Below, piece after piece: positions 32,669 to 52,481 of a stretch of 64,000 nt of DNA; within the stretch, counting starts at the first letter, position 1; the number at the start of each line of letters is the position of its first letter. Made by a program: the position numbers and the translations under genes. The notes beneath the pieces were generated by a model. It was given only the letters and a program-made list of their open reading frames with translations. It was not told the origin of the DNA and ran no database searches. Source of the DNA: Sphingobacteriia bacterium (GTDB lineage Bacteria > Bacteroidota > Bacteroidia > Chitinophagales > Chitinophagaceae); assembly GCA_004294135.1 (NCBI GenBank), contig RDZY01000008.1:67001-131000 (forward strand), written 5' to 3'.

Positions 32669-33094
32669 CTATTTAAAGAATTGCCTCACAAAATCATTTT
32701 CCTTTAATTCAGCTAAATTTTCAACACTTAATGGTTTGCTTACAAATTGAGCAACTACAGGAAATTTTTTTGCCCTAGAAAAATCTTCTGGATCAATTGT
32801 TGATGATAAGATGATTACTCTAGTATTAGGTAATTTACTGGCAAATTCTGGAATATATGCTTCAAGAAAATCCCAGCCATTCATTACTGGCATATTAATA
32901 TCTAGCAAAATTAAAGTTGGAGCGTCATCAATAGGATTCGTACTTGACGCAAATAATTCTTTGAAATAATCAATAGCATCACTCCCATCCACCGCTGTGA
33001 TAACTTCATCTGCAAACCCATTTCTTTTGAGCAGAAGCTTGGATATAGTAAGTGAAATACTATCATCATCTACGCAAAGGATTTTATTAATCAT
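32669..33094 (-). CDS. Single-domain response regulator
   Basis: Starting at the ATG at 33094 (MINKILCVDDD; the upstream frame opens only at a TTG), the protein is 141 aa and consists of one receiver domain. The acidic pocket is CVDDD, the phosphorylation site is D in LLLDINMPVMNGWDF, the switch residues are ILSST and the conserved Lys is in VSKPLS. There is no output domain, so it should act as a phosphorelay step or bind a partner. It is convergent with dapA and lies at the downstream end of the polysaccharide locus, with no kinase nearby. Confidence 0.88.
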   Translation of the reverse strand: MINKILCVDDDSISLTISKLLLKRNGFADEVITAVDGSDAIDYFKELFASSTNPIDDAPTLILLDINMPVMNGWDFLEAYIPEFASKLPNTRVIILSSTIDPEDFSRAKKFPVVAQFVSKPLSVENLAELKENDFVRQFFK

Positions 33095-33160
33095 TGATTG
33101 GATTTTAAAATAAAAGTACAACTATTAATGCAAAATGACTCGCAATTTTAAACGTAATAA

Positions 33161-35816: not shown

Positions 35817-36677
35817 TTACGCTTCTTGCCAACCAATAGATTCATCTATCAATTTAAAAATATGCTGGTCTATATTTTGATCGAATTTTCTTGCGAAAAA
35901 ACAATCTGATTCATGTATCTTTTGAAAGTCTTCTGTGACTAATAATTTTGGATTTTTTTCTTTTTTTGACCAATCAATGTACCGCAAATTATTATTAATA
36001 ATAGATTGCCTATAATCGGAATTAAATAATAAAGTTTGGAAAATAATTTCATCAGGCGCCCAAGTCAATTTAAAAAACCGAGCTATAAATGGACTGGCTT
36101 CCATTTTAGCCAATATATATTCCATCTGTCTATAAGTAATGGTAAACCACTGTGATCGGCCGACTGGTACCATATTTTCAGGCATTTTTCGTTTAGGCAA
36201 TAGTTTATTAATAAAATATTGGATTTTATATTTCCCTGGGAAATCCCTAAAATTAGTAAGATGATATTCTTCTAAACGAGAAATTGCTTCTGTCCACTCT
36301 TTATTCACATCTAGGCAATGCATAAACGCTTTGCCAGCATGATTTTTAAGAAATTGGTGAAAATTTTTTATCGGTTGCAGAAGATAATCCTGCCCACTTA
36401 ATAAATTAATATAATCTACACCCAAACCAGCAGATTTTATTTCAGCAAACCCATTCAAGGTTGCTTGCACCATACTGTATGAAGCCCAAGTAATACTTAC
36501 TCTCTTTTTAATGAAATACACTTGCTTGTACCCAATAAAAACTTCAGTAAATACCCTTATATCGGCTTTTAGGTCTATATGTATAAAGTAGACCGCTTCT
36601 TCACAACACAACCTATCTACCAATCGTTTCAACTGTAGTGGTTCATGATGTGCAAGTATGAGGTGGGCTACTTTCAC
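35817..36677 (-). CDS. GT14-type (core-2/I-branching-like) glycosyltransferase
   Basis: The 286-aa protein has the start HLILAHHEPLQLKRLVDRL and FIHIDLKAD, then INLLSGQDYLLQPI and WAPDEIIFQTLL, which match the beta-1,6-N-acetylglucosaminyltransferase-like (Branch) family. The start codon is GTG at 36677, which overlaps the flippase stop codon (GTGA). Family members add a branching sugar without the DxD motif; the linkage here is unknown. Confidence 0.82.
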   Translation of the reverse strand: MKVAHLILAHHEPLQLKRLVDRLCCEEAVYFIHIDLKADIRVFTEVFIGYKQVYFIKKRVSITWASYSMVQATLNGFAEIKSAGLGVDYINLLSGQDYLLQPIKNFHQFLKNHAGKAFMHCLDVNKEWTEAISRLEEYHLTNFRDFPGKYKIQYFINKLLPKRKMPENMVPVGRSQWFTITYRQMEYILAKMEASPFIARFFKLTWAPDEIIFQTLLFNSDYRQSIINNNLRYIDWSKKEKNPKLLVTEDFQKIHESDCFFARKFDQNIDQHIFKLIDESIGWQEA

Positions 36678-38014
36678 GAAAATATTCTTTTGGAATTAAA
36701 TTGTCGAATAGTACTCCTAAGTTGAATATACCCCGACTTAAAAATATCTATTAGTTTAAAAGGAATAAACTTATTGAGTATATAATAGCCATAGAAGATT
36801 CCTACACAAAGCGGTAATACTGTGGCGATTGCCACCCCATAAAGGTTATCAAAAACGTAAATACCCACAAAGTCTCCAATTATATTCACCAAAAGCATCA
36901 ATGTAACTTTAATGAAATTAGCCTTAGGTTGATGTACAATATCTAGTGTTACTGCTATGAAACGATCAATTGGATAAAACACAGCAAAAACCATCATAAT
37001 TCTATATACATTGGCTGCTTCTGTTGCTGTATACTTTCCACCTCCCAATAATGAGATTGCTAAATCAGCAAACACAAATACGCCCAATGCAATCGGAATA
37101 AAAATAAGCGTGAGTGTACCTGCATATTTCTTTAAAATATACCCCACTTCAATTTTCTTGTCCCTATTAAATGCTTTTGCCAATGAAGACATTGCTGTGG
37201 CCAAAGTACTGCGAAGTGGTATTTCAATTATTTCCATCAACCTACCTGGCAAATTATAAATAGCAACTGCACTCGCTCCTAGCAGATAGCTAATAATAAA
37301 GGTATCAACACTTCTGAGCATATTGGCACTAATAGTTGTACCAACACTGTATTTGCCAAAATGATAAATTTCTAAAACAGTGGATTTTGAACGATAGAAA
37401 AAAGTTTTAATAGCTGTCCACCCAGTAAATAAACAAACAGCACTTGCCAAAATATTGGTCACCAAATTCACAATAAATAAAGTTTGCAAATGCATCTGGT
37501 CAACTAGAATTAGTAAAATAACGCCAACAATAAAACTGCCTTGACTGATGATACGTAATATCAGCAAGCGATCAAAACGTTGATCTGCTTGAAGTATCCA
37601 TGAAGCAATACTGGAAGGTAATGAGGCAATAAATGTGATGCCAAACCATTGTATAGTAAACAAAAGTGAGGAGTTACTAAAATAACCAACAAAAGGGGCA
37701 AATGCTAGATTTATTCCAGCAAGTACTAAGGTAATAAGAATCGCTAAAAACCAAACCGAACCCAACACTTCTTTAGCTCTGTTATTTTCTGTGCCAGTAT
37801 AAAATTTAATTAGTGCAACTTGCAAAAAACCAGTTCGGAATGTATCTAATAAAACATAAACTGTTTGATAAACTACCCACTGCCCAATATCTGCTACTGG
37901 TAAAGCCCTATATAAAATTGCCACTGTTATCATTGCAAGAACAGCCATTACACCATTGCCTGCAAGCGACATGAAATGCTTATTTTTAAGTTTTTCAATG
38001 GCTTTTTTTATCAT
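36674..38014 (-). CDS. Wzx-type oligosaccharide flippase
   Basis: The 446-aa protein has about 12 to 14 hydrophobic helices and the MOP/PST family pattern (MAVLAMITVAILYRALPVADIGQWVVYQ; a central ANMLRSVDTFIISYLLG). It should move lipid-linked repeat units across the inner membrane. It overlaps the GT8 gene by 20 bases at its start and the GT14 gene by 4 at its end, a tight operon. Confidence 0.85.
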   Translation of the reverse strand: MIKKAIEKLKNKHFMSLAGNGVMAVLAMITVAILYRALPVADIGQWVVYQTVYVLLDTFRTGFLQVALIKFYTGTENNRAKEVLGSVWFLAILITLVLAGINLAFAPFVGYFSNSSLLFTIQWFGITFIASLPSSIASWILQADQRFDRLLILRIISQGSFIVGVILLILVDQMHLQTLFIVNLVTNILASAVCLFTGWTAIKTFFYRSKSTVLEIYHFGKYSVGTTISANMLRSVDTFIISYLLGASAVAIYNLPGRLMEIIEIPLRSTLATAMSSLAKAFNRDKKIEVGYILKKYAGTLTLIFIPIALGVFVFADLAISLLGGGKYTATEAANVYRIMMVFAVFYPIDRFIAVTLDIVHQPKANFIKVTLMLLVNIIGDFVGIYVFDNLYGVAIATVLPLCVGIFYGYYILNKFIPFKLIDIFKSGYIQLRSTIRQFNSKRIFS

Positions 38015-38990: not shown

Positions 38991-40184
38991 TCAACACACT
39001 GATAGAATTGCTTTGTAAATTTCTGAAACACTATTTTCCCAGGTATGTGTACTGGCAAATTTTTTCCGTTCATCGCTTTTAAAATCATCGTTTTCCAGCA
39101 TTGCCATTGTACACAACCTAATATAGTCGTGTACAGAAACCCCCAAATAGGTATATTCATTAAATACCGCTTCCATAAACGGGGTACTGGTAGCTACAAC
39201 AGGTTTTCCCATAGCTAAGTACTCATCAATTTTACGTGGATAGTTGCCAATAGTGACTTCACTTATAACTTGCGGATTTAAACAAATGTCAAAAGCGTGT
39301 ATATACGCAGGTAATTGAAGCGATGGCTTAGCACCTAAAAAGTAAACATTGGGTAATTGATGTAATTCACTTTTTAAGAACGCATCGTCTTCTGGACCTA
39401 CCAGCACTACACTCCATTCTGGTTTTGCTTTTGCTATTGAAATTAATAAATCTATATCCAGTCTTAGGCTTAACAATGCACCTATATAGCCGAGTCGAGG
39501 AAATGGAATATGCTTTATATCTTCAGGGGAATCATCTCCATTGAAATTAGCAAAAATTTCCATTTCGCACCCCTGCCCTACATAAAATGAGTGGGGATTA
39601 TATTGCTTACAATAATCTGACAAATAGGTAGAATTCGCAACACATACATCACTTTTGGCTATTAATAATGGTTCTAATTTTTCTCCGTGTTTTTTCCAGT
39701 AATCTACCGCTAACATATAATCCCTAGAATAATATACACTTGTTTTGGGAGATAGTAATTCTTTTAAATGAAAAGAACGAAATATATCATTGTCGTTAAA
39801 TAGAATTACATTTTTAAATCCAAGTTGATCTATGGCGTACCGAATATTTTTCGCAATTCTCTTATTATTTATCAAATTAAAATATTCAAATATTTTTTGA
39901 CTCCTTATCCAATTTATAGATTCGATAATATTTTTGGGGTATAGATTCCATAAATTATTTTCAATAAGAATAAGTGGCGACTCTAACCCTCTCGAAATAT
40001 TAATTCGCCTTTGAATTTTAGGGTCATTTTTTTGTTTGTACATTGAAAATCTATCTAAAGGGGCATTTACATATAATACCCGATTTTGCTTACTAAATTC
40101 AGCAGCAATATTTTTACAATTACTACCTATTTCAGTATCCCAAGGCTGCTGGCCTACAATTATGATGTCCCTATTGGTGATCAT
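38991..40184 (-). CDS. GT4-like glycosyltransferase (GT-B fold)
   Basis: The 397-aa protein starts with a Rossmann-like strand (DIIIVGQQPWDTEIGS) and has a C-terminal donor-binding domain: PRLGYIGALLSLRLDIDLL, VVLVGPE, VYFLGAKPSLQLPAYIHAFDICLNPQ and PRKIDEYLAMGKPVVATSTPF. This is the GT1/GT4 arrangement. Sugar and acceptor are unknown. Its start overlaps the polymerase stop (4 bases). Confidence 0.85.
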   Translation of the reverse strand: MITNRDIIIVGQQPWDTEIGSNCKNIAAEFSKQNRVLYVNAPLDRFSMYKQKNDPKIQRRINISRGLESPLILIENNLWNLYPKNIIESINWIRSQKIFEYFNLINNKRIAKNIRYAIDQLGFKNVILFNDNDIFRSFHLKELLSPKTSVYYSRDYMLAVDYWKKHGEKLEPLLIAKSDVCVANSTYLSDYCKQYNPHSFYVGQGCEMEIFANFNGDDSPEDIKHIPFPRLGYIGALLSLRLDIDLLISIAKAKPEWSVVLVGPEDDAFLKSELHQLPNVYFLGAKPSLQLPAYIHAFDICLNPQVISEVTIGNYPRKIDEYLAMGKPVVATSTPFMEAVFNEYTYLGVSVHDYIRLCTMAMLENDDFKSDERKKFASTHTWENSVSEIYKAILSVC

Positions 40185-41695
40185 ATTATTTTACTTTTAA
40201 GTTGTAATTGTTGTTCATCATCTATACGCCTTGTTACTACAATAAGCGCTGTAACCAAATAAAAATACACACTAGATGGAAGTTGCACAATAGCTTCCTG
40301 CGGATAATTACCAATATGTAATGAAAAGGCAATGAGTAGCATTGCGAGACAATAGGATTTTAATTCAGGATCTTTAATGGCAAAATAGTTAATAATACCA
40401 ACCCTTAAAATGGTAAACATAAAGCAGCAAAAAATAAATAACCCAAGCCAACCCAACTCTACTGCTACACGTACATAACCACTGTCTGGTGGAAAATTTG
40501 CTAGAAAGGAATTGGGCGCAAAACGCTGCCCCCATATTCCAGTTGAACCCAGTCCCCCTCCTATTGGGTGGCTTTGAATATATGGTTGAATTCTTTTTTG
40601 ATTTATTTTACGCACATTAAACGATGCATCATCTGAAGGTTTAAAAGCCGTTTGAAAACGATAGATTGTTGGATTAGAAGTCGGCATAAAAATAAGTACA
40701 ATCATACCAATTGCACCTATGATAGCAGCAGTCATTATTTGCTTATTGAATTTTAAGATTACCAACAATATCATTACAACTGGTGGCAATGCAAATGCCC
40801 CTCGCGTACCTGAATAAAGCATGGCCCACAAACAAATAATTGCACAAATTCCTAGAACAACTCTTTTATAAGTCTTTAAAGGGCCAGTCATCAAGCCAAT
40901 ACAGAGCAAACTACAGTTAACCATATTATAGGAAAAGGCTACAGGATCACTATAAATAGAAAACCTACGCCATTGACCTCCAATAAACAGGAGCTGCTCT
41001 AGATTTGGGTCAGAGTGTACAAAACGTTCTTCAAAGCCTGCAAAGCCAAAAAACTGTTGCTTCAGTCCATACAAAGCTCCAAATATGGACATGGTTAACC
41101 AGAGCTTTAAAATTATTTTTATAAAGTCTTTAGTCCTTATATTGTAAACAAAAATAAAATACATCAACATAATAACCGCTACTGACCGAATGGTGTAGAC
41201 CCAGGCTAGCCGAGATTCTGCTGCGGGGTTTATTACTTCAAGTAAGTTAAAAATAATCCATATTATAATCACAAGTGGAATAGGTCCCTTTATAAAACTC
41301 CAGTCGGTTTTTTGTTTTTGCTGAATAAAGAAACCCAGTATCAGAAATACTTCCATGGCGTCCATTAATGTACCCAATGGAAAATTGAGCCCCATTCGCA
41401 AAATCCACATAATCAAATTTGCGAGAAAAATAAAAATCAGTATCCCAAATTTTGGATAAACAGTTACCCCATAAATAAAGGGAAGTCCAACAATTATGGC
41501 AAGAAATAATACGCCAGGAATGAATCCATATTTTGAAATGGCAAAAGAGAAAAATAACGAACAAGCTAAAAGGAAAAAGAACCCACCAAATCCTGCTAAT
41601 TTTTTATTGAGAAAAAAATTCGACCATGCCCCCTTTGAAAATAAAAATTTACGAGGAGATACGCTAGCTGCTGGTATTTGAATCTCATTCTTCAT
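40181..41695 (-). CDS. Wzy-type O-antigen polymerase/ligase family protein
   Basis: The 504-aa protein has about 10 to 12 membrane helices and a long periplasmic loop between about residues 340 and 405 (ending NFPPDSGYVRVAVELGWLG), as in the Wzy_C (O-antigen ligase/polymerase) family. The Arg-rich and His residues (QSHPIGGGLGSTG) in the loop are typical. It should polymerise repeat units in the periplasm. It is the first gene after a 49-aa ORF that overlaps it by one base. Confidence 0.83.
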   Translation of the reverse strand: MKNEIQIPAASVSPRKFLFSKGAWSNFFLNKKLAGFGGFFFLLACSLFFSFAISKYGFIPGVLFLAIIVGLPFIYGVTVYPKFGILIFIFLANLIMWILRMGLNFPLGTLMDAMEVFLILGFFIQQKQKTDWSFIKGPIPLVIIIWIIFNLLEVINPAAESRLAWVYTIRSVAVIMLMYFIFVYNIRTKDFIKIILKLWLTMSIFGALYGLKQQFFGFAGFEERFVHSDPNLEQLLFIGGQWRRFSIYSDPVAFSYNMVNCSLLCIGLMTGPLKTYKRVVLGICAIICLWAMLYSGTRGAFALPPVVMILLVILKFNKQIMTAAIIGAIGMIVLIFMPTSNPTIYRFQTAFKPSDDASFNVRKINQKRIQPYIQSHPIGGGLGSTGIWGQRFAPNSFLANFPPDSGYVRVAVELGWLGLFIFCCFMFTILRVGIINYFAIKDPELKSYCLAMLLIAFSLHIGNYPQEAIVQLPSSVYFYLVTALIVVTRRIDDEQQLQLKSKII

Positions 41696-43846: not shown

Positions 43847-46009
43847 TTATTTAGGAACTTTTTCTAATCTATTAATATAGACTTTATTCAAAGCCCATCC
43901 AGCAAATCGATCTCCCAAGCCTTCTAAATATTTCACATTCTGAATCTTGCCATTTCGAATTGTTCCTCCTGATTCAAAAACGGCCATCACTTTATCTGCA
44001 ATTACAATCCATTCCTTGGCTTTATTCAACTTTGCAAGCGAAGGCGCTTCAATGATAATTACATCAAAAATATCCCGCAAATGAGCCAGCTTAGGCTTAA
44101 CAATCAATTCATCGCAAAACTCAAAAATAGAAGTATCGCCACCTCTATTTCCCAATACGCTGACTTTCCCATCACGTAAAATTTCAGAGACAGAGATTCT
44201 ATTTTTCAAATAATCTTCTAAATAATAAGTTGTTCCTGTTGTTGCTGTAATAGTGGGTTGATCGAAATTACCATCAATTAATAAAACTCGTTTATTTACC
44301 ATTGAAAATGCATATGCCAATCCAAGCGCAATCAGTGTTTTTCCTTCCCCATCTACCAAACTGGTAATAACAAGTTGTTTCTTTCCATTTATTTCCCGCT
44401 CTACTTCAAAACGCAATGATCGTATCAGATTTTTAAATGCAATAGTCACCCTATTTGCTCCTTCATTTTTCCAGAGGTTGGTTAAATCAAGCATGGAGGT
44501 ATTAATAAAAGGCAGATAGGAAAGTACAGACATTCCCGTTCTATTGGCCAAATCCAGTGAATTTTGGACTGCATTGTCCAGATAAAATACTACAAAAAAC
44601 GCTACAATACAGAACACAAAACTTACTATGCCAGCCAATGCCACCAATAATAATTTCTTTGAAGGCAAAGCAGGACCTGGCATTGCAGCTTCTATCTGCC
44701 TCAACTGAGTGCCTAAGCTAGATTCCAACCTTGTTCTGTTGTATCTTTCTTGTATATCTAAGTATTCTTTTCCAGCAACATCAACGGAACCTTCAAAACT
44801 CTGAATCAGTGCTTCATGGGGCACTAATAAATCGAATTTTTCATTGAGCGTACCGATCTCATTATTCAAAGAAGCCAAGCCACTTCTTGCCTGATCCAAT
44901 GATATTTCAAGGGTGATTCTTTGTTGTACCAGCAATTGTTTATTTGCGTATGGACTCACCAGTAATCGATCGGTTGAGCGCAATACTTGTTGTTCGATAA
45001 CTCTTTTTAATGAATCTAATCTAGCTTTAACAATGGGGTCGTAGTTGCTTTTAATGAGTTGATTGGTTACTATTTTAAGCTGTTCTCGAGTAGCTATGAT
45101 ATCTTGATTAACGTCTACCATAGTACTCTCTAAGTACCTACGTTCTTTTGGATCAAATTTAGCATCTATACCCTTTAGTGCACCTTCAAAAGCAGCAACA
45201 TCTTTTTTTGCCTCCTGAAGTCGCTTTTCAAAATCAGTAATTTGTTCATATAAACTTCTTGCTTGCTCATCTAAATTTAATACCCGATTTTTAATTTTAT
45301 AATCGCGAAGCAAGCGCATCTTAGCGTTCATAGAATCATACTTTTGCCGCATAAGCGTATCTAAGAAATTAACCGCTTTTTGCTGATTGCTTTTAATATA
45401 AACTCCATAGTAATCTAAAAATTCCTTGCTAAGCGTATTCACTACAAATACAGATAAAAAAGGGTTTTCAGATTCAAATTCAATATCAATAAAATCGCTG
45501 TTATTTACCCTATAAACTAGAATTTTCTTCTGTAGCGTTGCTTCATCATAACCCATAGAAATCAGTACCTGATTAATTCCGGACTGATCTTTGTCCCATA
45601 ACGATAACGATTCTTTTGTTTGAATATGTTCTCTGTAAACGTCTAAACAGTGAGCCCTAGCTTGGGGGCCAATCTCTTTCAATAGCTTACTTGCATTTCT
45701 GAATGGTTTATCAGAAGTAAGATCATGCACCATCAACTTAAATGAAACTTGCTCAAAGATCCGTTTTAGCCTAAACACTTCAATTAAATTACTGAACTGC
45801 TGCGCAATTTTTGACTCCTGAGATTGGTCTACTGTTATTAAAATTTGTTGAGACTGATCTACCAATCCCGTAGATATTCTGGACCGAGAATGAAAAGTAT
45901 CTGGAAGCTTTCGCACCAAAAAATAAGTTATAAATACGGTTATCATTGGAATGATGACCAGTACATATTTTCGCCTGTAAAGAAGTTTAAAAAATTTGCT
46001 TAGTTCCAT
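43847..46009 (-). CDS. Wzz/Wzc-type polysaccharide copolymerase with degenerate BY-kinase domain
   Basis: The 720-aa protein has two membrane helices (about 14-32 and 454-475) around a long periplasmic coiled-coil region, as in GumC/Wzc, and a cytoplasmic BY-kinase-like domain (about 515-720). Walker A reads SLVDGEGKT (550-558), with the conserved Pro replaced. Walker A' is LIDGNFDQP, with the second Asp changed to Asn. Walker B is IIIEAPS, with Glu instead of Asp. The C-terminus lacks a tyrosine cluster. It may set chain length without autophosphorylation (inference). Its ATG directly follows the TAA of the TolC-like gene. Confidence 0.83.
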   Translation of the reverse strand: MELSKFFKLLYRRKYVLVIIPMITVFITYFLVRKLPDTFHSRSRISTGLVDQSQQILITVDQSQESKIAQQFSNLIEVFRLKRIFEQVSFKLMVHDLTSDKPFRNASKLLKEIGPQARAHCLDVYREHIQTKESLSLWDKDQSGINQVLISMGYDEATLQKKILVYRVNNSDFIDIEFESENPFLSVFVVNTLSKEFLDYYGVYIKSNQQKAVNFLDTLMRQKYDSMNAKMRLLRDYKIKNRVLNLDEQARSLYEQITDFEKRLQEAKKDVAAFEGALKGIDAKFDPKERRYLESTMVDVNQDIIATREQLKIVTNQLIKSNYDPIVKARLDSLKRVIEQQVLRSTDRLLVSPYANKQLLVQQRITLEISLDQARSGLASLNNEIGTLNEKFDLLVPHEALIQSFEGSVDVAGKEYLDIQERYNRTRLESSLGTQLRQIEAAMPGPALPSKKLLLVALAGIVSFVFCIVAFFVVFYLDNAVQNSLDLANRTGMSVLSYLPFINTSMLDLTNLWKNEGANRVTIAFKNLIRSLRFEVEREINGKKQLVITSLVDGEGKTLIALGLAYAFSMVNKRVLLIDGNFDQPTITATTGTTYYLEDYLKNRISVSEILRDGKVSVLGNRGGDTSIFEFCDELIVKPKLAHLRDIFDVIIIEAPSLAKLNKAKEWIVIADKVMAVFESGGTIRNGKIQNVKYLEGLGDRFAGWALNKVYINRLEKVPK

Positions 46010-46759
46010 TTACTTCACTTCTTCTAACTTTTTTCCCACCAATTCTTCTAAAATTGTTTTTGCTACCAATACTGACCCTTCCGTCTCTATAATTTTTTGT
46101 TTCTGTTCTCCATTCTGAACCAATGCCTTACTATAATTTTCAAAACTATCTTCCCCCCTTTCAAATTTAAACTTAATTTGCTTTACTAGGCTTTCAAAAT
46201 CAATCGCATTTTGATTGTGTATTCTCAAAATAGTTAACTGTTGCATATACCTAAAATACCTGCTTTTTACTTCAGATTCAATGGTGAGTGCGTATTCGTC
46301 AAACTGAAGTTTTGCAATGGCAATTTCTTCCCGATTTTGTTTTAAGATAGTCGGTTTTTGAACAAGGTTAGAAATATTGATGAATGCCCCAATCTGTATC
46401 CCAGTTAAAGTTGCATTGGTTAGTGTAACTGAAGTGCTGGGACTGTAAAATGCAGATATCGTAAAAAAGTCAAACCAACTCAATCGATTTCTTTTAAGTG
46501 TTAATTCAGCAAAATTAATTTTTCGCTGATTCACTTTCATACGAGGATAATTCTGTTTAGCAGTAAAAATAAGTTTCTCCAAAAATGGGTAGGAAAGTTC
46601 AGGAATCATTGACTCTTGTGCCTTTACAGAGGCATTACTAAATACGAATATGACAATGAAAATCACGGCAACAATCCCTCTTTTTTGTCTAGGTTTTTCC
46701 CTAGAAACAATCGTTCCAACGGAAAAAGGATTATTTTTATATAAACCAATGATACTCAT
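46010..46759 (-). CDS. Half-size TolC-like exported protein
   Basis: The 249-aa protein has an N-terminal hydrophobic signal (about 29-48, preceded by a long basic start) and long helices (about 55-95, 145-245) with TolC/OEP character (AELTLKRNRLSWFDFFTISAFYSP, YFRYMQQLTILRIHNQ). Classical TolC proteins are 430-490 aa with two repeats, so this has one. It may form a multimer or an accessory for export. It starts the copolymerase operon and its TAA is followed at once by that ATG. Confidence 0.65.
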   Translation of the reverse strand: MSIIGLYKNNPFSVGTIVSREKPRQKRGIVAVIFIVIFVFSNASVKAQESMIPELSYPFLEKLIFTAKQNYPRMKVNQRKINFAELTLKRNRLSWFDFFTISAFYSPSTSVTLTNATLTGIQIGAFINISNLVQKPTILKQNREEIAIAKLQFDEYALTIESEVKSRYFRYMQQLTILRIHNQNAIDFESLVKQIKFKFERGEDSFENYSKALVQNGEQKQKIIETEGSVLVAKTILEELVGKKLEEVK

Positions 46760-46847: not shown

Positions 46848-47462
46848 ATGTCACTAAAAAATAGCATCAAACAAAATCCCAGTTTAAAGAAATTAGTCCA
46901 CTGGATGTTGGTTCCAACCAATGAAGCTAGGCCAAGACTTTGGGTAAAATTATTGGTCAACCCCTTCCTTCATAAAAGAGGCTCCAACTCAAAAATCAGG
47001 TGGCAGACTCGTATTGATGTGCTTCCATTTAATAAATTTACACTTGGCTCAGGCTCAGTTATTGAGAGTTATGCTACCATTAATAATGGAGTTGGTAATG
47101 TTGTAATTGGGAGCAACACCCTTATCGGTATGGGAAATGTAATTATTGGACCTATCACAATTGGGAATAAGGTGATTTTTGCTCAGAATATTGTTGCCAG
47201 TGCGCTCAACCACGAATACAGAGACCCCAATACTGCAATTATGGAACAACCAATATTAACTGCACCTATAGTGATTGAAGACGAGTGTTGGATTGCGGCC
47301 AACACCGTAATAACTGCGGGAGTAACCATTGGCAAACATTCTGTAATTGCAGCAGGAGCTGTGGTCACAAAAAATATTCCTCCCTATTCTATTGCAGTTG
47401 GCAACCCCGCAAAAGTGATTAAAAAATACGATTTTGATAAAAAAGAATGGATAAGGGTCTAA
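46848..47462 (+). CDS. Left-handed beta-helix sugar O-acetyltransferase
   Basis: The 204-aa protein has hexapeptide repeats (about 70-185): IGSNTLIGMGNVIIGPITIGNKVIF, then an excursion with SALNHEYRDP and a second set VIEDECWIAANTVITAGVTIG. The end GNPAKVIKKYD is the classic C-terminal cap. Members use acetyl-CoA. The His in the excursion loop is the candidate catalytic base. It is divergent from the TolC-like gene and sits within the polysaccharide locus. Confidence 0.88.
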   Translation: MSLKNSIKQNPSLKKLVHWMLVPTNEARPRLWVKLLVNPFLHKRGSNSKIRWQTRIDVLPFNKFTLGSGSVIESYATINNGVGNVVIGSNTLIGMGNVIIGPITIGNKVIFAQNIVASALNHEYRDPNTAIMEQPILTAPIVIEDECWIAANTVITAGVTIGKHSVIAAGAVVTKNIPPYSIAVGNPAKVIKKYDFDKKEWIRV

Positions 47463-47468
47463 AATAAA

Positions 47469-48674
47469 TTAGACCGATTCTGATTGTAAAAGTGCGGGAA
47501 TAGTCCTCAAAATAAGCTTTATATCGTTCCCAAAACTGTGATTCTCTGCATATTTATTATCAAGCATCAGTCTTTCATCTTCCGACATTTCCCCTTTCCC
47601 TCTTTTTTCTACCTGCCATAAGCCAGTTATACCAGCAGGTGCCATAAATCGCATCGCATATTTATCGGTAGTCAATTTCTCAGCCTCATACAAAGGCAAG
47701 GGACGATTTCCTACAATACTCATATCTCCAATTATTACATTCCACAACTGTGGCAACTCATCAATACTAGAATTGCGAATAAACTTTCCTACTTTGGTTA
47801 TTCGCGGATCGTCTTTTAATTTAAAAAATGCAGAGCCAGCTTTCGCCTTTCTATTATCATTATATTGCTTTTCGCACCAGCGGATGGTGTCAGAATAAAT
47901 CGGGAATCTACAACCTGTTCCTGCAGCTTGGCATTCACTACATAAAAATTCTATCGGTCCATCACTTTTAACATTCGGTGTGTCTTCATCCGCAACATTG
48001 TATTGATTCAAATGTTTTAAGTCTTTTAAACGCTGGTCTGCATTTACAAACATAGACCTGAACTTATAAAACTTAAACGTTCTGTACCCAGACCCAACTC
48101 TCAATGCATAGTAAAAAATTGGGCCCTTAGATTCTAACTTTAATAGTACACAAACCACTAGTAAAACAGGTGAAAGCATTAGAATGGCTAGTCCCGCAAA
48201 AAACAGATCAAATACCCTTTTAATTAAAGGGGTTTTATATTTACCAAACTGTAACCCTTTTGCATTGGGGTTCTTCAATAAATCCCACTTTTCAATCATC
48301 ATCGGTACCCGAATGGCGATATGATCTTTTTTAATCGGAAGCCTGAAAACGTCTGCTACGCCAGCTTTAAGGGCTAACTTGGCAATACTATCACTGAGTT
48401 GTTGGCTCACCAAAAAGTAGGGTATATTAATCCCTTTTTTTCGTGTAAGTGTTTCTAATAATGCAATGCCACCCGTTCCCAATACTTCACTTTGTGATAT
48501 GATGGCTACTAAATTAAAATGTTGCTTTTCCCAAGCTGCAAAAAAAGCAACCACATTTTCAAAAGCAAGCAGTTTTCTACCCCCAAAATCAACTGAGGAT
48601 AAAATAAGAAACACATTTTCATCACAGTCAATACAAGCAATTATTTGTTCTTCTAAAGGCACAGCTATATTCAT
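47469..48674 (-). CDS. Initiating sugar transferase with N-terminal pseudo-receiver domain
   Basis: The 401-aa protein fuses two parts. Residues about 8-130 look like a receiver (REC) domain (IIACIDCDENVFLI, VAIISQSEVLGTGG, LPIKKD) in which the phosphorylatable Asp is replaced (IISQ). Residues about 148-400 are a bacterial sugar transferase: one membrane helix (158-180), KFYKFRSMF, DELPQLWNVIIGDMSIVGNRP and ITGLWQV. An insert of about 60 residues (222-282) has cysteines at 245, 248, 255 and 267, suggesting metal binding. It should transfer a phosphosugar to undecaprenyl phosphate. It lies 14 bases after a stand-alone REC gene. Confidence 0.82.
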   Translation of the reverse strand: MNIAVPLEEQIIACIDCDENVFLILSSVDFGGRKLLAFENVVAFFAAWEKQHFNLVAIISQSEVLGTGGIALLETLTRKKGINIPYFLVSQQLSDSIAKLALKAGVADVFRLPIKKDHIAIRVPMMIEKWDLLKNPNAKGLQFGKYKTPLIKRVFDLFFAGLAILMLSPVLLVVCVLLKLESKGPIFYYALRVGSGYRTFKFYKFRSMFVNADQRLKDLKHLNQYNVADEDTPNVKSDGPIEFLCSECQAAGTGCRFPIYSDTIRWCEKQYNDNRKAKAGSAFFKLKDDPRITKVGKFIRNSSIDELPQLWNVIIGDMSIVGNRPLPLYEAEKLTTDKYAMRFMAPAGITGLWQVEKRGKGEMSEDERLMLDNKYAENHSFGNDIKLILRTIPALLQSESV

Positions 48675-48688
48675 GTTTCTATGATAAA

Positions 48689-49084
48689 TTATTTACGAAT
48701 TCTTCTCATCACCACTTTCAATCTGGCTTCTAATTCTTTGGGATTAAAAGGTTTCACCAAATAATCATCCGCCCCTGCTTCTAAACATTGTATGATGGTT
48801 TCAGAACTTTCCTCCCCTGATAAAATCACAATCGGAATCGCATTAAAAAAATCACTCGCCCTTAGCTGGCGGGTAAGCTCCATACCTCCCATTACTGGCG
48901 TATTTAGATCAGAAATAATCAAATCTGGTATATTGCCCTGCTGTAGAAAAGCAAGTGCGTCTACCCCATCTTTAAAAATTTCTACCTCATACAGATTACT
49001 CAAATATTTTTTCAGTATCAATTGCATCGTCATCTCATCTTCCACTACAACTATCTTTAATTGATCTGAATTACTGAATGCCAT
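48689..49084 (-). CDS. Single-domain response regulator, possible partner of the sugar transferase
   Basis: The 131-aa receiver has the acidic pair VVEDE, phosphorylation Asp in LIISDLNTPVMGG, switch ILSGEE and Lys in LVKPFNPKE, and ends with a basic helix (RRIRK). No output domain follows. Only 14 bases separate it from the pseudo-receiver sugar transferase, so it may signal to it. Start is ATG at 49084, and the region upstream is very AT-rich. Confidence 0.88.
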   Translation of the reverse strand: MAFSNSDQLKIVVVEDEMTMQLILKKYLSNLYEVEIFKDGVDALAFLQQGNIPDLIISDLNTPVMGGMELTRQLRASDFFNAIPIVILSGEESSETIIQCLEAGADDYLVKPFNPKELEARLKVVMRRIRK

Positions 49085-51057: not shown

Positions 51058-51074
51058 ATATTTTGAGGTTGATT

Positions 51075-52481
51075 ATGCAGCATCGAAAAAAAAATATCAG
51101 TCTCTATATATCCAGCGATTATTCGCTTTCCCTTATTGCCACTATTGCATACAACTTATATTTTCCCAATAACTTACTCGAAGTAATTGAAATTTTTGGA
51201 ATACCCATCAGCGGAACAAGACTCGTACGTGCTGTGATACTCATACCTCTTTTCTGGTGTTGCCTTTATTTTTTCACAGGCAGCTATAACAAATCGCTTT
51301 ATGAAAAATCAAGACTAAGTGAACTAACTGCTTCATTATTGCATAGTTTTTTCGGTTGTATCATCCTCTATTTTGTTCCCAGCTTTAGCAATATGCACGG
51401 TGTTCAGCAATTTTTTATATACCTAATAATACAAGTCGCGCTGATTAGTACAGGTAGAACCATCTTACTTTTCCAGACTAAAAAAACACTCAAAGAAGGT
51501 CAGGTTTATTTCAATACATTAATGGTCGGCAACAATATAAAATCAGTTAATATATTCAGTGCCCTCGATAGAAATTTTCGCTATCTGGGTTTTAAAACAG
51601 TAGGTTTCTGCTCCGTTTATCCCGATGAAATGAAAAATGGGCTTGCAAAATGGCTTCCACACTTGGGTAATATTCATCAGGTAAAAACAATTGTAGAAGA
51701 ATACCATATTGAAAGGGTAATTATTTCTATTGATAAGAAAGATAAGCACCTCATTGAAGCTCTCATCAGCAGCTTGACTGAAAAAGAAATAGATATTAAA
51801 TTGATTCCAGATACCATTGATATTTTAGCAGGCTCAGTAAAGTCCAGCAATATACTCGGTGCTATGCTCATTGATATTCAAACTGCAGCACTTTCTGCGC
51901 GCGAGCAACATATTAAGCGATTGATTGATATTGTTGTAGCAATGATAGGGCTTATAGTACTTAGCCCTCTGCTCGTTTTTTTTGCTATAAGAACTGTATT
52001 TAGTTCTTCGGGTGGAGCTATTTATCAACAGGAAAGAATTGGATACAAAGGCAAGCCATTTACCATCTATAAATTTCGAAGTATGTTTTCCGATGCAGAG
52101 AAAAATGGCCCAGCACTTTCCAGCGACTTCGACGAAAGAATTACCCCTTGGGGCAAAACCATGCGAAAATGGCGACTCGATGAATTACCCCAATTGTGGA
52201 ATATCTTAATCGGAAATATGAGCTTGGTAGGACCAAGGCCAGAACGAAAACCGTATATTGATTTACTGCTCTCCAAAACACCTTATTATCGATACCTTTT
52301 TAAAGCAAAGCCGGGACTCACTTCATGGGGAATGGTTCAATTTGGGTACGCAACCAGTATTGATGAAATGGTTGAGAGAATGCAATACGATTTAATTTAT
52401 ATAGAGAATGCTTCTCTCCTATTAGATTTTAAAATCATGATGCATACCCTCCGTATTATTTTATCGGGCAAAGGAAAATAA
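51075..52481 (+). CDS. Membrane-spanning exopolysaccharide initiating sugar transferase
   Basis: The start is taken as the ATG at 51075, giving 468 aa; the upstream frame opens at TTG 51063. The N-terminus has about four membrane helices, a central CoA-binding-like domain (about 140-245) and a C-terminal bacterial sugar transferase domain (about 270-468) with its own helix, FRSMFSDAE, DELPQLWNILIGNMSLVGPRPE and GLTSWGMVQ. This is the classic polyprenyl glycosylphosphotransferase layout (WcaJ/WbaP-like). It starts the repeat unit on undecaprenyl phosphate. It is the second initiating transferase in this locus. Confidence 0.88.
   Translation: MQHRKKNISLYISSDYSLSLIATIAYNLYFPNNLLEVIEIFGIPISGTRLVRAVILIPLFWCCLYFFTGSYNKSLYEKSRLSELTASLLHSFFGCIILYFVPSFSNMHGVQQFFIYLIIQVALISTGRTILLFQTKKTLKEGQVYFNTLMVGNNIKSVNIFSALDRNFRYLGFKTVGFCSVYPDEMKNGLAKWLPHLGNIHQVKTIVEEYHIERVIISIDKKDKHLIEALISSLTEKEIDIKLIPDTIDILAGSVKSSNILGAMLIDIQTAALSAREQHIKRLIDIVVAMIGLIVLSPLLVFFAIRTVFSSSGGAIYQQERIGYKGKPFTIYKFRSMFSDAEKNGPALSSDFDERITPWGKTMRKWRLDELPQLWNILIGNMSLVGPRPERKPYIDLLLSKTPYYRYLFKAKPGLTSWGMVQFGYATSIDEMVERMQYDLIYIENASLLLDFKIMMHTLRIILSGKGK

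Follow-up and report, generated by a model that had tools for sequence, protein, structure and literature searches.

The stretch of DNA analysed here (the window, 64,000 nucleotides of a Sphingobacteriia bacterium contig) carries two adjacent reverse-strand genes that encode an initiating sugar-phosphate (phosphoglycosyl) transferase and a stand-alone receiver (Table 1). The receiver gene lies immediately upstream, 14 bases away according to the preliminary description of this DNA, which rightly called it canonical. The neighbours of the pair form a Wzx/Wzy-type cluster that also contains glycosyltransferases, their labels coming in part from Pfam. Among the matches listed, the closest named relative is found in a Sediminibacterium (76% identical), and the DNA probably comes from this genus. 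By eye, the C-terminus of the co-polymerase/ATPase-like protein lacks a tyrosine cluster, and this protein may be a pseudokinase. A second, classical large initiating transferase (51063-52481, forward strand; CoA_binding_3 and Bac_transf domains, above the TIGR03025 cut-off) lies 4 kb from the receiver-linked one and is without a receiver. The opposite end of the glycan cluster has a second stand-alone receiver-like ORF (32669-33121, reverse strand, 150 aa, E 2.8e-14 with our receiver HMM).

Table 1. Features of the receiver-transferase pair and its surroundings; positions are those of the window.
Feature	Position	Strand	Basis or content
Initiating sugar-phosphate (phosphoglycosyl) transferase, 401 aa	47469..48674	-	pseudo-receiver and monotopic catalytic domain
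Pseudo-receiver domain, residues 9-134	48273..48650	-	AF2, PDB comparison, family alignment
Catalytic domain, residues 147-398	47481..48236	-	hydrophobic stretch 149-183 and Asp305-Glu306 dyad
Cysteine-rich insert, residues about 224-282 (C245, C248, C255, C267)	47829..48005	-	active-site loop
Stand-alone receiver of 131 aa, a single-domain response regulator	48689..49084	-	Response_reg E 3.5e-26
Phospho-acceptor Asp59 codon of the receiver	48908..48910	-	alignment
Flippase-like	36674-38014		putative label
Polymerase/ligase-like	40181-41695		putative label
Co-polymerase/ATPase-like protein	43847-46009	-	putative label
OEP protein	46010-46759		putative label
Hexapeptide acetyltransferase	46848-47462		putative label

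The catalytic part of the transferase is readily recognized: its Bac_transf domain scores 195.1 bits against a curated cut-off of 27, and D305, E306, K204 and R300, invariant in a 32-row alignment, match by homology D93, E94, K59 and R88 of PglC, where D93-E94 is the catalytic dyad (PMC12802240). It shares this domain with the large WbaP/WcaJ enzymes (the protein at 51063-52481 of the window; PDB 8t53), which likewise have an extra cytoplasmic alpha/beta domain ahead of it. The large enzymes differ in their four-helix bundle and CoA_binding_3 domain: hydropathy gives the window transferase a single hydrophobic stretch, a domain search returned no CoA_binding_3 match in it, and its TIGR03025 score (large monoPGT WbaP/WcaJ) of 237.8 bits stays below the cut-off of 295.55. 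Unlike the small monotopic PglC (PDB 8e37), which has no N-terminal domain, it carries a pseudo-receiver.

The preliminary description had proposed a receiver-like fold without the phospho-Asp at residues 8-130, and the AF2 model compared with the PDB indeed predicts five beta-alpha repeats there, with Gln61 at the phospho-Asp position and Leu112 at the Lys position. The adjacent receiver has the complete pocket (E15, D16, D59, S89, K111). It has no output domain, in contrast to OmpR/PhoB regulators with their DNA-binding domain, and is a single-domain response regulator. Its best NCBIfam match is PhoB (9e-29, far below the cut-off of that model); the earlier label "phosphate-signal-like" has no footing other than this PhoB-like sequence.

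To place the pair among its relatives, loci were selected on the transferase only, as the best matches to transferase profiles among the matches listed, so that close relatives are over-represented; the receiver HMM was built from the adjacent receivers of the first loci. In a phylum-wide sample of 392 genomes, the family was present in 46 among the matches listed (E <= 1e-60). At E <= 1e-90, and again among the matches listed, it was present in 78 of 351 genomes of one Sphingobacteriales-type family, in 44 of 344 of the window's own family and, for the family to which a Flavobacterium-like genome belongs, in 16 of 347. The 281 loci yielded 208 distinct members, of which 193 have the N-terminal domain and 15 lack it; the effective number at 70% is 131 for the pseudo-receivers and 59 for the receivers.

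The split between the two pockets holds across this set. In the alignment of adjacent receivers, the phospho-acceptor is Asp in 187/191, the Lys is kept in 189/191 and the Ser/Thr in 190/191, and the whole phosphorylation pocket is complete in 182 of the 191 receivers versus none of the 193 pseudo-receivers. The latter have mostly Glu (64/193) or Gln (62/193) at the phospho position, and the 15 that have Asp there lack the acidic pair, the Lys, or both. Judged by these residues, the pseudo-receiver is a degenerate domain predicted to be incapable of phosphorylation. There is a division of labour, with a live receiver beside a dead pseudo-receiver.

The two genes are closely linked. A stand-alone receiver (<= 200 aa) adjoins, on the same strand, 191 of the 193 distinct transferases with the N-terminal domain in these best-match loci. 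The gap between the two genes has a median of 6 nt and ranges from -41 to 128 nt, and in 63 cases the genes touch or overlap; the receiver ORF is truncated in L005 (72 aa) and L048 (99 aa). The adjacent receiver is absent in L014 and L123, the latter having a histidine kinase upstream instead. No adjacent receiver was found for any of 15 large transferases of at least 430 aa (13 from Bacteroidota, and L115 and L116 from Bacillota) or of 41 non-Bacteroidota transferases, and among the other genes of the wider loci only 3 of 241 adjoin one, one of these being the 5' part of a family member split in two. The control list from which the 15 large transferases come had 17 entries, the other two being halves of a split member (L055:5869-7065, forward strand), which is interrupted by a frame break; in a further member, L260, an in-frame TAG cuts the reading frame short. 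Both breaks are either assembly errors or decayed genes. Since the gene beyond the receiver varies between lineages, we regard receiver and transferase as the conserved unit.

Of the 15 family members without the N-terminal domain, five have an adjacent receiver, and in L060, L063, L282, L283 and L284 (the last three being wider views of L137, L139 and L141) the receiver lies one gene further away; the remaining members are L059, L135, L143, L144 and L260. With five adjacent and at least five one gene away, the receiver is tied to the transferase clade and not strictly to the pseudo-receiver, so that its role does not strictly need that domain. The intervening gene in L060, L063 and L282-L284 encodes a putative LruC-like protein of some 675 aa in which a D-x-DFND-type motif is repeated; similar proteins are encoded in L058 and L132, there upstream of the receiver gene. 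At another locus (L288:4935-10904, reverse strand), a histidine kinase lies upstream of a receiver-less transferase whose pseudo-receiver has retained Asp at its phospho position; by eye, we take the upstream proteins there to be FIST, H-NOX-associated and H-NOX proteins, hinting at a nitric-oxide input.

A published system offers a close parallel. In Myxococcus xanthus, DifE phosphorylates the single-domain regulator EpsW, which stimulates EpsZ, the initiating transferase. Proximity labelling, together with heterologous expression, backs a direct action, and a 2:2 model points to a role of EpsW in EpsZ dimerisation (PMC12802240). The pairing occurs in 9 of 15 myxobacterial EpsZ orthologues, and the authors suggest a wider occurrence (PMC12802240). 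The window pair is similar in that a single-domain regulator with a conserved phospho-Asp stands in a polysaccharide locus and is linked to the monotopic transferase that initiates a Wzx/Wzy pathway. EpsZ, however, is a large monoPGT: it has a four-helix bundle, and its cytoplasmic domain is without the beta-hairpin. The window transferase has neither the bundle nor such a domain and carries the pseudo-receiver instead; because these two parts are missing, the pair is not a member of the EpsW/EpsZ type as defined. The EpsW kinase is named and direct activation has been demonstrated, whereas for the Bacteroidota pair activation is likely by analogy. In having a receiver-type domain on a transferase without a four-helix bundle, the window protein also resembles the fusions of receiver domains to small monotopic transferases (O'Toole 2021, as cited in PMC12802240).

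The preliminary description knew of no described system of this form. This stands for the exact architecture, as we found no description of it for Bacteroidota in the literature searched, from which subscription journals were mostly missing, and the main text of PMC12802240 nowhere contains "Bacteroid". It does not stand for the concept: a receiver-activated initiating transferase was published in 2025 (PMC12802240).

In Bacteroidota, the enzyme that initiates a surface polysaccharide often has a dead receiver domain and, where it does, almost always follows a live receiver gene in these best-match loci; this points to control of the first glycan step by a phosphorylation signal. We consider it probable, by analogy with EpsW and EpsZ, that the initiating transferase is controlled by the phosphorylated receiver through direct contact between the two. 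The near-invariant linkage and the EpsW/EpsZ precedent support the regulatory link that had been proposed for this locus. Together, the two genes would make up a control module acting on the first membrane step in the synthesis of a Wzx/Wzy-type exopolysaccharide. Asp59 would be phosphorylated by a histidine kinase whose gene lies elsewhere, and the phosphorylated receiver would then bind the transferase and change its activity, probably upward and probably by favouring an active dimeric arrangement, as phosphorylated EpsW does for EpsZ. The pseudo-receiver would most likely serve as a dimerisation and docking platform. In favour of this reading, which we prefer, we counted the linkage, the pocket split, the output-less receiver, the EpsW precedent, D108/R122 of the pseudo-receiver and the 22 HisKA matches in the genome; against it, the pTM of the linked model, the depletion of inter-protein couplings, the relatives that have a receiver nearby although they lack the N-terminal domain, the two of 193 transferases without a receiver, the lack of a kinase in the window and the small number of wider loci with a kinase-like ORF.

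A motif scan found no kinase-like ORF in the 64-kb window. Kinase-like ORFs were found by motif in 6 of 35 wider loci, with L040 added by a looser motif. By eye, a divergent hybrid kinase is present in L042 (and L040), which are Sphingobacteriaceae-type loci, and the end of a hybrid kinase-like ORF lies upstream in L133, L134, L142 and L119. No general rule for a partner kinase emerges from these loci. Single-domain receivers can act at a distance, which would fit a receiver that targets the export machinery, a BY-kinase-like co-polymerase or another signalling protein and is merely the first gene of the operon. We judge this very unlikely, as the pair persists while the gene beyond the receiver changes, and none of the 15 large transferases in comparable loci has a receiver.

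The face by which the pseudo-receiver may act is better conserved than its pocket. In the weighted alignment, R122 (Arg in 168/193) and D108 (Asp in 167/193) rank as its two most conserved positions; by register from the Lys position we assigned them to R111 and D97 of KdpE. In KdpE, D97 and R111 form a salt bridge between the monomers of the alpha4-beta5-alpha5 dimer (PMC4773095, PMC8329863), and in PhoB an R115D change is partly rescued by D101R (PMC4511772). That D108 and R122 are the most conserved positions argues that a dimer-type face has outlived the phosphorylation pocket. The stand-alone receivers also keep the salt-bridge residues of the OmpR/PhoB face, as in KdpE, VanR and RegX3 (of 189: R97 in 145, D106 in 136, D107 in 165, E117 in 169, R121 in 141, R128 in 126).

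These two faces would suit the earlier proposal of a receiver/pseudo-receiver heterodimer as the switch, if this were of the OmpR/PhoB-like alpha4-beta5-alpha5 kind. The divergence of the two domains is correlated (r 0.88), also beyond the catalytic domain (partial r 0.50, with species phylogeny corrected only through that domain), which agrees with a partnership but does not fully remove shared ancestry. Against such a heterodimer, an AF2 model of the linked domains reached a pTM of only 0.53, with a mean pLDDT of 86.3 for the domains, so that each domain is well predicted but their mutual orientation is not. This is no refutation: the chain, a natural read-through from L041, a different species, without the catalytic domain, was modelled with a shallow alignment of six in-frame relatives and twelve receiver rows. 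Direct coupling analysis of 189 of the 191 pairs (the two truncated receivers dropped; effective number 128 at 80%) placed 30 inter-protein pairs in the top 100 versus 51.8 expected by number, and these were scattered, which lends the heterodimer no clear support. The best inter-protein score was 1.43, versus 0.75-1.30 in ten shuffles, and we give it no weight because shuffling destroys phylogeny.

The pseudo-receiver keeps both an acidic residue at 108 and a basic one at 122 in 174 of 189 pairs; 13 of the 15 exceptions have lost both D/E108 and R/K122, and each of these 13 stands beside a receiver with R/K121. The 40 receivers that lack R/K121, in turn, are all paired with pseudo-receivers that keep D/E108. 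Co-variation of Asp and Arg between the two proteins gave Fisher p values of 0.07 and 0.70, the first running against the heterodimer. The D108/R122 pair tracks itself and not the receiver, so a homodimer or an intramolecular bridge fits better, and we regard the heterodimer as a doubtful candidate for the switch. In L257-L268 (genus g47, Sphingobacteriaceae-type), most pseudo-receivers have lost D108 and R122, and the inserts are without cysteines.

The joint loss in 13 of 15 exceptions would also fit a pseudo-receiver that only homodimerises the transferase, in place of the WbaP-type cytoplasmic domain, with the receiver acting on the catalytic domain. Receivers adjoining transferases without the N-terminal domain are in line with this, as is the published EpsW model, in which the receiver contacts the cytoplasmic domain as well as the catalytic one (PMC12802240). 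However, D108 and R122 could pair within one monomer, as described for a comparable pair in NsrR (PMC4773095), and small monotopic transferases are monomers; we hold this alternative as a tentative possibility.

The cysteine-rich insert, which had been noticed in the catalytic part of the window protein, turns out to be a family feature. The insert region has at least 40 residues in 181 of 208 members and is short in 27. Among the 181 long inserts, 140 have four cysteines, three have five, 38 have none and not one has one to three; the pattern C-x2-C-x(4-14)-C-x(8-20)-C matches all 143 that bear cysteines. This all-or-none distribution is as a four-ligand site predicts, and the cysteines could, as a guess, bind zinc or an iron-sulphur cluster. 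The insert has low pLDDT in the AF2 model and was placed by residue register (K59, M63 and D93 of PglC to K204, M208 and D305), not by a computed residue alignment. On this register it is the putative counterpart of the mobile loop of PglC (residues 61-81, about 20 residues), enlarged here by roughly 60. In PglC, closure of this loop correlates with binding of a nucleotide analogue (PMC12550135). With a bound metal, the cysteine site would probably order the loop above the UDP-sugar site. A broader version, which we think unlikely, is a phylum-wide gate with two inputs, in which the phosphorylated receiver, acting via a pseudo-receiver that would have replaced the transmembrane/cytoplasmic module of large transferases, and a four-cysteine metal or redox sensor jointly commit undecaprenyl phosphate.

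To our knowledge, how bacteria control the spending of undecaprenyl phosphate on surface polymers is largely open, and we know of few systems with post-translational control of the first glycan enzyme. If the preferred reading is true, much of the Bacteroidota would carry a compact pair of one soluble and one membrane protein, and phospho-control could be reconstituted with two proteins. The EpsW/EpsZ idea would gain an independent and far more widespread second case, in a different transferase architecture, and the pseudo-receiver would show cleanly how a receiver domain can lose its chemistry and still keep a dimer-type face. Were the two-input gate true, phosphorylation and a metal or redox signal would jointly decide the commitment of undecaprenyl phosphate to exopolysaccharide.
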